64,000 bases of DNA from Fimbriimonas sp. (GTDB taxonomy: Bacteria; Armatimonadota; Fimbriimonadia; Fimbriimonadales; Fimbriimonadaceae). Under the pieces are notes generated by a model. That model did no database searches and had not been told where the DNA came from. It saw nothing but the letters and a program-made list of their open reading frames with translations. Of the stretch, positions 7,601 through 13,294 are shown in pieces. The DNA is taken from positions 62,001-126,000 of the forward strand of contig JARLGV010000056.1 of assembly GCA_031292555.1 (NCBI GenBank), read 5' to 3'. Every line of letters starts with the position of its first letter. Within the stretch, counting starts at the first letter, position 1. The position numbers were made by a program, and so were the translations under genes.

Positions 7601-8980
7601 CAGTGGGACAACCGAACGTGGTCGGTGAATCCGGGACCCAACTTCAACAATTACGGCGACAACATGAACGGTCTGGTTCCAGGCTACGTGAAGCACGGCG
7701 AGGTTGCTTGGTTCGCATCGCATGACCACACGCCGACCGGAAACACCTACTACCAGTACACCTATCTATACAAGTACGGCATCGACATTCCGAAGGGAGT
7801 CACGTCCGTGACGTTCCCGAACGACGCGCATGTCAAGATTCTTGCGGCCAGCGTCGCGCGCAACACGCACGATCGGATCGCTCCTGTGCAGGCCCTCTGC
7901 GATACCCTTGCCGACCATTCGGGAGGTGGAGCTCCGAGCGTCACCCCCAATTCGGGAACGTTCACCGACTCGACCGAAGTTCGCATCGACCCGCCTCTGT
8001 ACTGGCACGGTGGGACGATTCACTATACGACCGACGGATCGACGCCGACCGCGTCGTCGCCGACCTATAAGGGACCATTTATGGTCAGCAATCCGACGAC
8101 GGTTTTGACGGTCCACGTCGACGTGGACGGCAAGACAAGCACGGTAGGCGGCGCAACGCTCATGGTGAACGACACCACACCCCCTTCGATCGTCGCCGCC
8201 AGCATAGCCAAGGAACTCGGGTTTGCCAAGGTGGTGTTCTCCGAACCGCTGGACAAGGCGAGTGCCGAGACGGTGGCTAATTACCGCCTCGACTCGAACG
8301 CCGAAATCGCTTCGGCCGAACTGGGCCCCGATCAGCGCACCGTCGAGTTGACGCTCGCCCACCCAACTGCCTCGCTGGAGCCGGATCGGCTCTCCGTCAG
8401 CGGGGTGAAGGATCGTGCCTCGACTCCCAATGTCGCCAAGGCGTCCGTCGACCTCAAGGTCCATGGCGCGGTGTTTACCAGCCCGGCCCTCGCACCTCAG
8501 GAGTCGCGCGTTTTCAGCCGCATTCAGGGCATGCCCGTGCACGGCGGCGATTCCTGGACGCTAAACCTGTTCTGCAAGATCGATGCCCAACCCGAGGACC
8601 GCGTGATGATCGCCGGCTTCGGTCGATCGATCGACGGTCAGACGGGTGCCGGCCGCTACTTCACGAAGTTCGCCCGGGGCATCAACTTCTGGGTCACCGG
8701 CCGCGACGTGGCGACCGACGTTCCGCTCGACCTCGGCAAGTGGCAGATGCTCACGGCGACGTACGACGGAACGACGATGAGGCTCTTCAAGAACGGCGAG
8801 AAGATCGCGGAGGAGACTGTCCAACTGGAAAATGACAGTAGCCAGGTTCGCGTCATGCCGCTCGACGCATGGGAGCGGGAGCGCCGGTTCGGGGGCGAGG
8901 TCCGCGACCTAACGGTCTGGGACATGGACTTGCCGCCGGCCGCCGTCAAGCGAATGTGGGAGGCGGGTCGAGACAAATGA
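4682..8980 (+). CDS. Secreted GH38 alpha-mannosidase with carbohydrate-binding and LamG-like C-terminal domains
   Basis: This 1432-residue protein has a signal peptide (residues 1-27, AAAFAASAQ). The GH38 catalytic domain shows the zinc-binding AHLD motif (His48, Asp50), NVPSGES, and the nucleophile Asp161 in PDCFGFPYSLP. The mid-domain and GH38 beta-sandwich domains follow to about residue 860. A further beta-sandwich rich in aromatic residues spans about 870-1070. Next is a chitobiase/hexosaminidase C-terminal-type domain (about 1080-1160, with IHYTTDGSTPT), an SbsA/Big_5-like Ig domain (about 1165-1250) and a LamG/concanavalin-like domain (about 1260-1432). Ordinary GH38 enzymes are about 800-1050 residues, so the C-terminal third is an accessory substrate-binding array. 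Known: GH38 enzymes remove terminal alpha-mannose with retention, using zinc. The gene diverges from the lacI operon across two operators and overlaps the next gene by four bases (ATGA). Confidence 0.95.
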   Translation: MAPKNLNRSLRIGTGFLAMAAAFAASAQTSQPIDLSKGHTLYVVPYAHLDTQWRWAYPQTIREYIKNTLTRNFALIDRYPHYIFNFSGSRRYEMMKEYYPDLYQKLIGYVKEGRWFPCGSSVDEDDANVPSGESIIRHILYGNHYFRREFGVASEEFMLPDCFGFPYSLPSILAHCGIKGFSTQKLTWGSAVGIPFKVGVWEGPDGKSVVAALDPGSYGGPVSEDLSQNTSWLARIQKTGDISGAYVDYHYYGTGDQGGAPNARSVDWMEKSVEGTGPVTVVSAKADDMFKALKPNQIAKMPRYKGELLLTAHSAGSISSEAFMKRSNRKSELLADAAEKASLAANLVGNTTYPSDRLYRAWDLVLGSQMHDMLPGTSIPKAYEFCWNDFLLAQNQFASIETDAVGAVAARLDTRGKGTPLIVYNPLSTARRDLVEATIPDSFRGGSVAVSGPNGKDETGQILARKDGMVTVAFQAEAPATGFAVYSVHAAAHPAPVKSDLKIDARHIENSRYRVTVNEAGDIASIVDKQTKREILKAPSRLEMQYENPSAYPAWNMDWDDAKLPPRDIVGGPAKFRIVERGPTRVVLEVERRAKGSKFVQDIRLTSGGDQVEVLNKIDWATRERALKASFPLTCGNPEATYDLQLGATRRGNNDPKKYEVPQHQWFDLTNTAGTYGVGILNDSKFASDKPNDDTVRLTLLYTPGVRGGTEDQATQDFGRHEILYAIAPHRGDWRVGQVPWKGKRLNQPLRAFVVTPHAGTLGKSFSLGSTSSNDVEIQALKKAEDSDEIVVRFREINGFGAKGVRVKFAQPVVSAREVNGQEMPIGPATISGGELVADVPAYSLKTYAIRLAKTKSEASVPPIVAQTLKLPFNADVVSTIAHPGDGEFVNHQSLAADQLPSTLTVDGVKFALGPKNDGAENAVAAHGQKISLPKGFNRLYLVAAADSDTAATFKLGKFSAPLVVQDWTGYVGQWDNRTWSVNPGPNFNNYGDNMNGLVPGYVKHGEVAWFASHDHTPTGNTYYQYTYLYKYGIDIPKGVTSVTFPNDAHVKILAASVARNTHDRIAPVQALCDTLADHSGGGAPSVTPNSGTFTDSTEVRIDPPLYWHGGTIHYTTDGSTPTASSPTYKGPFMVSNPTTVLTVHVDVDGKTSTVGGATLMVNDTTPPSIVAASIAKELGFAKVVFSEPLDKASAETVANYRLDSNAEIASAELGPDQRTVELTLAHPTASLEPDRLSVSGVKDRASTPNVAKASVDLKVHGAVFTSPALAPQESRVFSRIQGMPVHGGDSWTLNLFCKIDAQPEDRVMIAGFGRSIDGQTGAGRYFTKFARGINFWVTGRDVATDVPLDLGKWQMLTATYDGTTMRLFKNGEKIAEETVQLENDSSQVRVMPLDAWERERRFGGEVRDLTVWDMDLPPAAVKRMWEAGRDK

Positions 8981-10032
8981 CCCGAGCCGCCGCAACGAAG
9001 ATGCTGCTCCTCATCGGAGCGGCATCGATGTTGCACTCGCCGGCCCGCGCTCATCCGGCGAACATCCCGGTAGCCCGCGTCTCCGTCCAGGTCGACGGCA
9101 AGTTCGAAATGAGCTTCACTTTCGACATTCTTGCCTTCGTCCTCGACCAAACCCCCGAGTTGGTCCTCGACGCCCCGATGAACGCGTTGCTCGACGGGCC
9201 CTCGGCCGACCTCCAGAACCGGCTGAACGATGCGAAGTCGCGCTTTCAGGAGGAGTTATCGGTAGGCGGAGAGGCGCGGAACGGAACCATCGACTCCATC
9301 GATTGGCCCTCCGCCGCCGACATTCATCAGGCGATCGCCAACGGCCAATTGCCACGCCTTCCGGTTATGATGACCGCCACTCTCCACGGGCACATGAAGC
9401 CTGGAGTCCGAGAGATCTCGTTTCGATTCGCCGACGTGTTGGGTCCGATAGTGCTAAGCACCGAGTTCCCCTACCGTGAGCCCCAATCCGAGTCGCTCGA
9501 TGCCGGCGACTGGAGCCACGTTCTGACCATTCCTACTCAAACCGAAATCGATGCTGCTGCCGCAACGATGACGCCTCATCGTGCGACGCCCAAACCGGCC
9601 GGGCCCGTTCCCGGTGAAGCCGATGCGAAGCGGGCGATTCAGAGCCAATACAACCGATGGTCCAGGGCGTACATGGGCCATGACACCGACACCCTGTTCG
9701 CCATCCTGGCTCCCGGCTACACGATCAAGACGGCAAAGGGCGCCCTCATCACCCACGACGAGTACGAGGCGATGCTGAAGCTTCGGAAGCAGAAACACAG
9801 CGACACCACCCGCTATAGCACCGAGATCGTGCGGATCACGCTGAAAGGAAACGTCGCCGCCATCTGGTCGCGCGAGACCACGACCGACCCTGGCCTCGAC
9901 CAGATAACCGGCAAACCGAAGCCGGTCAGCTACCTGCACGACTACGTCGACCTCTGGGTCTACACCAACGGCAAATGGCTCCTAAAGAGCACCGCAACCC
10001 AAAAGGAAGTCGTCATCCCGACCAGCCATTAA
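8977..10032 (+). CDS. Secreted protein with C-terminal NTF2-like (DUF4440/SnoaL-type) domain
   Basis: This 351-residue protein has a signal peptide (MTRAAATKMLLLIGAASMLH..., cleavage near ARAHP). The ATG overlaps the TGA of the alpha-mannosidase gene (ATGA), so the two are translationally coupled; that start was preferred to one about 100 bases upstream inside the mannosidase. The first 180 residues form a domain I do not recognise; its opening resembles the extracytoplasmic part of HupE/UreJ-type proteins only loosely. Residues about 215-345 look like an NTF2-like fold of the DUF4440 kind: a long helix with YNRWSRAYMGHD, the segment LFAILAPGYTIKTAKG, and terminal strands with YVDLWVYTNGKWLLKSTATQ. 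Known: such domains bind small ligands or act as simple hydrolases or isomerases. No function can be assigned. Confidence 0.8.
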   Translation: MTRAAATKMLLLIGAASMLHSPARAHPANIPVARVSVQVDGKFEMSFTFDILAFVLDQTPELVLDAPMNALLDGPSADLQNRLNDAKSRFQEELSVGGEARNGTIDSIDWPSAADIHQAIANGQLPRLPVMMTATLHGHMKPGVREISFRFADVLGPIVLSTEFPYREPQSESLDAGDWSHVLTIPTQTEIDAAAATMTPHRATPKPAGPVPGEADAKRAIQSQYNRWSRAYMGHDTDTLFAILAPGYTIKTAKGALITHDEYEAMLKLRKQKHSDTTRYSTEIVRITLKGNVAAIWSRETTTDPGLDQITGKPKPVSYLHDYVDLWVYTNGKWLLKSTATQKEVVIPTSH

Positions 10033-10148: not shown

Positions 10149-10194
10149 GCGCCGAAGGCGCGGATCCATAGCAGCCTTGGGTGAAGCCCAAGGC
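10149..10194. repeat. Two-hairpin REP-like palindromic element
   Basis: Two perfect hairpins lie 12 bases apart: GCGCC-GAA-GGCGC (10149-10161) and GCCTTGGG-TGAAG-CCCAAGGC (10174-10194). A similarly built pair (CCGC-AAA-GCGG, then GCAGCCC-TGAAA-GGGC) occurs at 26476-26509, so this looks like a dispersed REP-type family. It lies in the leader of the YbjQ-repeat gene. Confidence 0.6.
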
Positions 10195-10225
10195 TCATAT
10201 GGGGATGCACGTTCGGCGCTACTAC

Positions 10226-11410
10226 ATGCACCCCATGACACCGCTGGTTCGTTCTATTGTTGTGGCAGTCAATACCGGCTTTTCTGGAAATGAGATCTAC
10301 TGTTTGGCGAAGAAGGAGATGGCGCCCGGCGAACTTGTCATCGGCAACAGCGTTTGTTCCATGGGGTTCGTGGGGACCATCGGGTCCGGGCTCCGAACAC
10401 TAACGGGTGGCGAGGTCGCCCAGGTTACCGAGATCGTTCACCAAGGGCGGCAAGCCGCTTTGGAGCGGATGACGGCGTGGAGCGACTTGAGGGGGGCGAT
10501 CGGGATCTCCGGCGTCACCACCGAGTTGGTTCAGCACGGCGGAAGCATGGAGTTCCTCAGCGTTGGCTCGGCGGTGCACCGCAAGGGATACATGGCGCCC
10601 AGCCTCGAATTCACTTCGTCGTCCGACGGACAAGAGCTGTATTGCCAGATCGACTCCGGGTTCAAACCGCTTCACTTCGCGTTCGGCAACGTCGCCTACT
10701 CAATCGGATTGGGTGGCGGCATCGCGGGAGCGTTCCGCGGGCTCGCGAAGGGCGAAATCAAGGAATACAGCGAGGTGTTCAATCACACGCGCCACCTTGC
10801 CCTCCAACGGATCCAAGCGGACGCCCGGAAGCACGGCGCAAACTGCGTGGCCGGCATCCGCACGTCGATCATCCCCTTCCAGGGCATGCAGGAGATGGTC
10901 ATGGTCGGCACCTCGGCTCGGCACGAGGCCTACCCGTCAGGATACGACACGGCGCCTGCCACCAGTGACCTGACTTGTGAGGAAACCTGGAACATGGCAA
11001 ATCTGGGTTACCTGCCGATCCGACTCGTTCTCGGCTGCTCGATCTACTCCATCGGCTTCGTCGGCGGAATCGCCGCCGCCTTCAAGTCGCTCGCACGGGG
11101 CGAAATCAGCGAGCTGACCAAGCTCGTATACGACGCACGCGAAAACGCCCTCCACCATATCGCACGGGATGCCGAGGAGTGCGGAGCCGACGATGTCGTC
11201 GGGATCAAGACCTACGTCTACTCACTCGGGAGCGGCATCATCGAGTTTCTCGCGATCGGCACCGCGGTCAAGAAGATGCCAAACGTGACGACGGTTTCCG
11301 ATTCCCTGCCTCCTCAAGCGGTCATGCGAGACAAGGACACCTTCATTAACACTGCTGAAACACTTCGCGGTCAGAACCTGAACGAGTCCAAGAAGGCGGG
11401 CGCGGGATAG
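10226..11410 (+). CDS. Triplicated YbjQ/UPF0145-domain protein
   Basis: About 394 residues, made of three tandem copies of the YbjQ (UPF0145, 'putative heavy-metal-binding') fold, about 90 residues each, at roughly 5-100, 125-220 and 250-340. Each has the family's strand-helix-strand pattern: a first strand, a Gly-rich turn (SMGFVGTIGSG; SIGLGGGIAGAF; SIGFVGGIAAAF), a long helix (EVFNHTRHLALQRI; KLVYDARENALHHI) with the following GAN/GADDVVGI, and a last strand ending in GTAVK or similar. Known: E. coli YbjQ is a single domain of about 107 residues that assembles as a ring-like oligomer; its function is unsettled. No signal peptide or membrane segment is seen. The start is uncertain: GTG 10181 lies in a hairpin, ATGs occur at 10199, 10205, 10226 and 10235, and none has a good ribosome site. 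Confidence 0.82.
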   Translation: MHPMTPLVRSIVVAVNTGFSGNEIYCLAKKEMAPGELVIGNSVCSMGFVGTIGSGLRTLTGGEVAQVTEIVHQGRQAALERMTAWSDLRGAIGISGVTTELVQHGGSMEFLSVGSAVHRKGYMAPSLEFTSSSDGQELYCQIDSGFKPLHFAFGNVAYSIGLGGGIAGAFRGLAKGEIKEYSEVFNHTRHLALQRIQADARKHGANCVAGIRTSIIPFQGMQEMVMVGTSARHEAYPSGYDTAPATSDLTCEETWNMANLGYLPIRLVLGCSIYSIGFVGGIAAAFKSLARGEISELTKLVYDARENALHHIARDAEECGADDVVGIKTYVYSLGSGIIEFLAIGTAVKKMPNVTTVSDSLPPQAVMRDKDTFINTAETLRGQNLNESKKAGAG

Positions 11411-11595: not shown

Positions 11596-11686
11596 GATTC
11601 TAAGGTGACATGAAGGACCACGGCATCGCACAAGTGTGCACCTACGCAATCGCCACTGTGGAGGCGCAACTTGTTTTGGCCTGTCC

Positions 11687-13294
11687 ATGGGCCGGAAGCC
11701 GGGGAGCACCTTGAACAAGGCTTCCGCGATCTGGCTAGCGGTCGCGGTCGGAGCGCTTACGATCGCCATCCTGATCTTGGTTGCGATCCAGTTGGCCAAG
11801 CGAGAGAGCATCGAATCGGTCAGCGTGGTCGCCTCAACCATTTCGGGAGACGTGTTAAGACGGGCCGACGGGGCCGCCGACCAGATGTACGAGGGATACC
11901 GTCGACTTCAGTCATCGGGCGAACTCGATCCGTGTTCGGACCGAAGCATCGCCCTGATGCAGGACATCAGCCTCCGATCCTCCCAGATCCAATTAGTCGG
12001 CTTTGTAGCGAACAACCAGCTTCTATGCTCATCCATGGGACGGTACCGCCCAGGAATTCCCGTCGGCCCCGTCGACTACCACAGCAGCATGGGCACCAAC
12101 GTACGCTTGTCCGTCGAATTGCCCATGGCGCCCCATACCCGATTCCTCATGAACGATAAGCAAGGGTTCGCGATGGTCATGCATCCGGAAATCCCGATCA
12201 ACGTGATGGTGAACCAGCCGAAGATTTCGGTGGGAATCTTCTCGTACAGCACGGGCAAGGAGATCGTCGGGCGGGGAGAATTCGACCCCAAGTGGGCTCG
12301 ACTTCTGGGAAGCAACTTCCGCAAGACCCTCGTCACGAGTGGCGAGGTCGTTGCCCTGAGCCGGTCGCAGAAGTATGACTATGTCGCGTTCGCCGCACTG
12401 CCGGGAGCCCTCGTCGCGGCTCGCACCCGGGTATTCGCGCTAGTGATGGTGCCCATCGGGCTGGTCCTTGGACTGGCGCTCACCGTGAGCTTGGTGCTTG
12501 TGGGTAGGCAGCAACTCTCCTTCCCGGCCGTTATCCGAACAGCCATACGCAAGAAGGAGTTCTTCATGATGTATCAGCCGGTCGTCGACCTGCGGTCCGG
12601 GCAATGGACGGGCGTCGAGGCGCTGGTTCGCTGGAATCGAAGCGCCGGAGAAATCGTTCAGCCCCACCTCTTCATCCAAGCGGCGGAGGAGAGTGGAATG
12701 ATCACCAAGCTAACCCAGGAGGTGATCGGAATGGTTGCGCATGACGTGCTCGATTTGGTCAAAGAACATCCAGAGCTTTCGATCGCCCTGAACTTCTCGC
12801 GTGACGACCTTCACTCGGACGAGACGATATCCCGGCTCAAGAAGCTCCTGGCGGAATCTGGAATCCATCCTAACCAATTTATGGTGGAGATCTCGGAGCG
12901 GGGATTACTCAGTGCGGACGTCGCGGCCAAGATCATTCGGACCATCCGCGAGTTGGGGGTTCAGGTCGCGGTCGACGACTTCGGAACCGGATACTCCAGC
13001 CTGTCATACCTGACGACTCTGGACCTGGACTATCTGAAGATCGACAAAACGTTCATCGACACGATCGGCGTCGACACGGCTACCAGCGGTGTCATCCAGC
13101 ACATCATCGCCATCGCCAACTCGCTCAACCTCAAGATGATCGCCGAAGGAGTCGAGACAGAAGACCAGGTTAGCTACCTGCGCGAGCACGGCGTTCAGTT
13201 CGCCCAAGGCTGGATCTTCAGCCAGCCGATGACCATCGACGAATTCAGAACCGAGTTTGCCGCCCGGTCCCGAAACGCCTCGCATTCGGCCTAA
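11687..13294 (+). CDS. CSS-motif/EAL-domain cyclic-di-GMP phosphodiesterase
   Basis: This 535-residue protein has a transmembrane helix (about 9-33), a periplasmic CSS domain with Cys83 (DPCSD) and Cys114 in the name-giving LLCSSMG motif, a second membrane helix (about 245-268), and a cytoplasmic EAL domain from about 285. The catalytic signature E311-A-L, the segments NFSRDDL, EISERG and DDFGTGYSSLSYL, and the late EGVET with QGWIFSQP are all present, so it should be an active c-di-GMP hydrolase with no GGDEF partner domain. Known: CSS-EAL proteins such as E. coli PdeC (YjcC) are controlled by disulfide state of the two periplasmic cysteines. The start at 11687 was chosen to give a short basic N-terminus before the first helix; longer forms start at 11636. 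The gene converges on the sialidase, with one base between the stop codons. Confidence 0.92.
   Translation: MGRKPGSTLNKASAIWLAVAVGALTIAILILVAIQLAKRESIESVSVVASTISGDVLRRADGAADQMYEGYRRLQSSGELDPCSDRSIALMQDISLRSSQIQLVGFVANNQLLCSSMGRYRPGIPVGPVDYHSSMGTNVRLSVELPMAPHTRFLMNDKQGFAMVMHPEIPINVMVNQPKISVGIFSYSTGKEIVGRGEFDPKWARLLGSNFRKTLVTSGEVVALSRSQKYDYVAFAALPGALVAARTRVFALVMVPIGLVLGLALTVSLVLVGRQQLSFPAVIRTAIRKKEFFMMYQPVVDLRSGQWTGVEALVRWNRSAGEIVQPHLFIQAAEESGMITKLTQEVIGMVAHDVLDLVKEHPELSIALNFSRDDLHSDETISRLKKLLAESGIHPNQFMVEISERGLLSADVAAKIIRTIRELGVQVAVDDFGTGYSSLSYLTTLDLDYLKIDKTFIDTIGVDTATSGVIQHIIAIANSLNLKMIAEGVETEDQVSYLREHGVQFAQGWIFSQPMTIDEFRTEFAARSRNASHSA

Follow-up and report, generated by a model that had tools for sequence, protein, structure and literature searches.

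A protein of three fused YbjQ (UPF0145) domains in Fimbriimonas and an apparently undescribed family of bacterial relatives

A gene encoding three tandem YbjQ domains

We analyzed a 64,000-nucleotide stretch of the genome of Fimbriimonas sp. (hereafter the window) and found an open reading frame on the + strand, from positions 10181 to 11410, that encodes three tandem YbjQ_1 (PF01906) domains. In a profile search, the whole protein matched PF01906 with an E-value of 8.6e-41 (139 bits). Because the frame contains no internal stop codon, and because it is 61–71% identical along the entire chain to proteins from ten further species in its taxonomic family, we regard it as a real gene. A previous sequence-only reading of the window had placed the start at the ATG at position 10226; however, ten orthologues from the same family begin at a codon aligned with a GTG at position 10262. 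The GTG is therefore most likely the start, yielding a 382-aa product with its stop at 11410, and the upstream ATG is probably too early. The features are as follows:

10262–11410, + strand: triple-YbjQ gene, 382 aa, probable GTG start (orthologues start at the aligned codon)
10271–10582, + strand: repeat 1, YbjQ_1, 40 bits; triad E51, R63 and E97; private invariant C14 (profile scan and 63-row alignment)
10601–10924, + strand: repeat 2, YbjQ_1, 52 bits; triad E165, R177 and E211; private invariants FxFGNVAY (139–146) and H178 (profile scan and 63-row alignment)
10955–11275, + strand: repeat 3, YbjQ_1, 60 bits; triad E281, R293 and E328; private invariants W243 and Y290 (profile scan and 63-row alignment)
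11291–11341, + strand: conserved C-terminal tail, residues 344–360, L-P-P-Q-A...D-x-D-T (alignment; mostly confident in the model)

In the numbering of the window protein, repeats 1, 2 and 3 span residues 4–107, 114–221 and 232–338. When scanned singly against PF01906, they scored 40.2, 51.8 and 59.8 bits, respectively, each exceeding the curated Pfam cut-off of 23 bits, and they were 28–36% identical to one another; the proposal of three fused, distinct repeats in the sequence-only reading was thus borne out. The assignment to YbjQ/UPF0145 held as well, since the profile identified every repeat as YbjQ_1 and YbjQ crystal structures ranked first in a fold search (Foldseek, 1y2i and 1vr4, probability 1.00); neither the profile nor the fold searches placed a repeat in another family or revealed one lacking the YbjQ core. 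A profile search of PDB sequences likewise returned 2gtc (5.9e-5), 1vr4 (9.4e-5) and 1y2i (9.1e-4). A match to 4qvr spanning two repeats was too weak for use (Z 5.2–6.2, rmsd 4.1–5.5).

The window protein shares with the UPF0145/YbjQ proteins (PF01906; 1y2i, 1vr4, 2gtc) the domain fold, the profile, the helix Arg and the GTA end strand. However, those proteins are single domains that form pentamers, whereas three domains are fused here. They also possess profile positions 1–18, whereas the best-scoring stretch in every repeat of the window protein starts at position 19, and a short helix motif, S-D-L-x-x-E-x-W...G-Y-x-P, stands in for positions 1–18 in each. The N-terminal strand corresponding to these positions is a common, uncurated requirement for membership in the family, and the Pfam cut-off is reached without it.

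A literature search found no description of tandem YbjQ proteins, and NCBIfam contained no model that accepts the triple-YbjQ proteins. The triple form of this known family is therefore apparently undescribed.

Immediately downstream of the gene (11636–13294) lies a gene for a CSS-motif and EAL domain protein of the cyclic-di-GMP phosphodiesterase type, and the upstream gene (8953–10032) encodes an N-terminal part without assignment followed by a DUF4440/SnoaL-like C-terminal domain. When the neighborhoods of homologues were compared, the CSS-motif/EAL gene was not retained beside the triple-YbjQ gene; no neighbor was common across clades and the adjacent genes had no functional theme, and a conserved gene neighborhood was accordingly rejected. 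A link to viruses was rejected after zero matches in the phage and viral-contig collections, the plasmid collection gave only weak or partial relatives, and anti-phage defence was rejected as PADLOC detected none.

Conserved residues in each repeat

We aligned 63 triple-YbjQ sequences, whose rows were 52–87% identical to the window protein, and mapped the conserved residues of the aligned repeats. Every repeat of each of the 63 sequences carried an unvarying Glu-Arg-Glu triad: its first Glu belongs to the GE capping the long helix, the Arg lies within this helix, and the second Glu opens the last strand. Of these residues, the Arg and the second Glu did not vary in 11 single-domain relatives from the same taxonomic family either, and the complete triad was invariant in four two-domain proteins. 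In addition, each repeat carried private invariants among the 63 sequences, namely C14 in repeat 1, FxFGNVAY and H178 in repeat 2, and W243 and Y290 in repeat 3. The suggestion in the sequence-only reading that a fused form might help to reveal conserved residues proved correct in this respect.

Because the triad is invariant in every repeat of every sequence, no repeat has decayed, and the triad together with the repeat-specific invariants suggests a distinct role for each repeat. An equivalent Cys or His in all three repeats was not found in the 63 aligned sequences, which lends no support to a thiol/imidazole metal site recurring in each repeat; the only fully invariant residues of these types were C14 and H178, each in a single repeat.

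Distribution and origin of the triple form

We scanned one genome per species and obtained 204 relatives. The best 80 of these all aligned with the triple protein over the whole or the greater part of its length, and among them at least 74 loci besides the window contained a full-length triple reading frame. Contrary to the rarity implied by the sequence-only reading, the triple form is a widespread family of single origin. The carriers belong to Armatimonadota, Cyanobacteria/Melainabacteria, Legionella, other Gammaproteobacteria, Rhodocyclales, Bdellovibrionota and Vulcanimicrobiota (Eremiobacterota), together with single MAGs labelled as other phyla. The distribution was patchy: the gene was present in 11 of 61 genomes of the taxonomic family of the window, about 20 of 151 genomes of its phylum, 8 of 22 Legionella genomes and 2 of 116 genomes of one cyanobacterial class. 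Betaproteobacterial copies, one of them from the isolate Uliginosibacterium gangwonense, nested within a cyanobacterial clade (support 99/99 to 100/99), which points to horizontal transfer. Given the patchy distribution and the lack of a common neighbor, the gene stands alone and has probably moved horizontally.

In a tree of single repeats, which is based on few columns and in which the long branch to single domains is uncertain, repeats 1, 2 and 3 each formed one clade (support 85/96, 100/97 and 97/95, respectively). This grouping by position indicates that the triplication arose once, before the spread of the gene. Repeat 3 was nearest to a separate two-domain YbjQ family (85/84), comprising pairs annotated as 'heavy metal-binding domain-containing protein' in Streptomyces and Armatimonadota. 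These proteins share the N-terminal helix motif and the E-R-E triad and are the nearest relatives of repeat 3, yet they represent a different family, with two domains per chain and, in several genomes, adjacent gene pairs near a gene of approximately 130 aa.

Two loci showed local peculiarities. One (L091:3–2375) contains a tandem pair of triple-YbjQ genes, the first truncated by the contig end. In Stenomitos frigidus (L074:1569–2858), the gene is divided between two frames, neither of which covers a portion of repeat 2, and this reflects either a broken gene or a sequencing error.

Predicted structure and cell location

AlphaFold2 gave a mean pLDDT of 82.6 and a pTM of 0.83 with the 63 sequences, higher than the values obtained from a shallower alignment of 11 sequences (78.0 and 0.79). 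Residues 331–360 formed a block with pLDDT 87–97, and low confidence was found in the Gly-rich loops at residues 38–45, 151–160 and about 261–280. According to DSSP, each modelled repeat consists of a short N-terminal helix, a long strand, the Gly-rich loop, a long helix and two strands. The model favours the packing of the three YbjQ folds as a compact single-chain unit.

In 23 of the 63 homologues, from cyanobacteria, Legionella, Rhodocyclales, Bdellovibrionota and one Melainabacteria, the tail is followed by a terminal transmembrane helix, whereas the window copy and 39 others lack it. The hydropathy of the C-terminal 19 residues separated the two groups (2.2–3.0 in those with the helix, 0.84 or less in the 40 without it). 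Sequence analysis detected no N-terminal signal in any of the 63 homologues. Together with the terminal hydrophobic helix in 23 of them, this result points to a cytosolic protein that some lineages anchor by its tail.

Possible assembly and function

We propose, with a probability of roughly 0.5, that the product is a stand-alone cytosolic chain of three YbjQ domains, forming a compact pseudo-symmetric unit that acts as a scaffold or buffer binding ligands or partners. Domains that are otherwise separate subunits of a pentamer are here covalently joined; they may lie side by side via their edge strands, with the conserved tail closing or bracing the unit. Fusion would convert identical sites into three different ones in a fixed order. 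In cyanobacteria and Legionella the unit would lie against the inner membrane on its cytoplasmic side, and in the lineage of the window it would be soluble. Rather than catalyzing a reaction, it would most likely serve, we infer, as a scaffold or buffer that binds a small ligand or a partner protein at putative inter-domain sites.

The sequence-only reading envisaged a pseudo-symmetric ring bearing three ligand sites. Such a ring is a plausible hypothesis; a closed three-membered ring, an open arc and stacked five-membered rings are all conceivable. Solved YbjQ proteins are pentamers that have the fold of RcsF and DUF1471 (PMC4092069), and each of three PDB entries for YbjQ contains five chains. 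Three does not divide five, and the pentamers do not account for how three domains would close a ring. RcsF, DUF1471 and dodecin are related to the triple protein as small alpha/beta folds by structure comparison; however, they show no sequence match to it and differ in assembly.

The pentamers, together with the individual conservation of the repeat positions, are consistent with an assembly of five chains in which every repeat position would build a separate pentamer, so that 15 domains stack as three five-membered rings. The confident placement of domains within the chain by AlphaFold2 (pTM 0.83) favours within-chain contacts instead, although it does not prove them, and we consider stacked rings unlikely.

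The name YbjQ in a report on thiamin-phosphate synthase presumably stands for the differently named YjbQ. We set aside the thiamin-phosphate-synthase activity given for YbjQ (PMC7084401), as the two names were apparently confused. A heavy-metal-binding function, as the Pfam and NCBI names imply, draws on the family name; this inherited label is weakened because no Cys or His is common to the three repeats, C14 and H178 each being single, and although the triad carboxylates could bind metal, we regard such a function as quite improbable.

A 3+2 pseudo-pentamer of the triple chain and a two-domain YbjQ protein from the same genome is very improbable: the window's genome carries both proteins and repeat 3 is closest to the two-domain family, but 11 of the approximately 20 triple-bearing Armatimonadota genomes, some at least 98% complete, show no two-domain protein among the listed matches, and approximately 20 show two-domain proteins and no triple, an independent occurrence that contradicts an obligate partnership and makes it unlikely.

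C2CD5 is a eukaryotic trafficking protein, and Pfam also includes YbjQ_3 and YbjQ_4. The YbjQ-like domain of C2CD5/CDP138 (YbjQ_2) belongs to the same YbjQ-like superfamily, whereas the C2 domain is absent from the triple protein. Weak YbjQ_2 matches were found in 56 of the 63 triple proteins (best, 1e-5), with at most 19.7 bits against the cut-off of 29.1 for PF23025 among the members with scores shown. A special kinship with C2CD5 was rejected, as these matches are weak and bacterial single-domain YbjQ controls score equally.

UPF0145 is a very common family for which we know of no function. A tentative and rather doubtful proposal is that the triple proteins represent a hitherto undescribed family in which each chain is a pseudo-symmetric YbjQ trimer with three distinct binding sites, anchored in the membrane in some members. 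In architecture, such a family would be a bacterial counterpart to the multi-YbjQ portion of C2CD5, and it would offer a handle on UPF0145 function. Because the order of the sites is fixed, the fused form permits them to be mutated singly, as a homopentamer does not, and the residues to mutate are the E-R-E of each repeat, C14 and H178. Moreover, the tail-anchored forms would localize the protein to the inner membrane and so limit where its role has to be sought.

Two-domain gene pairs were located at L034:1471–3071 (same genome as the window, contig C121), L019:175–1887, L036:124–2244 and L137:2043–4129 (a Streptomyces plasmid). The upstream gene of the pairs is far more divergent, and the nearby gene of approximately 130 aa had no Pfam match in the L036 copy, the one scanned. 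Comparable two-domain gene pairs were also observed among the cyanobacterial matches.
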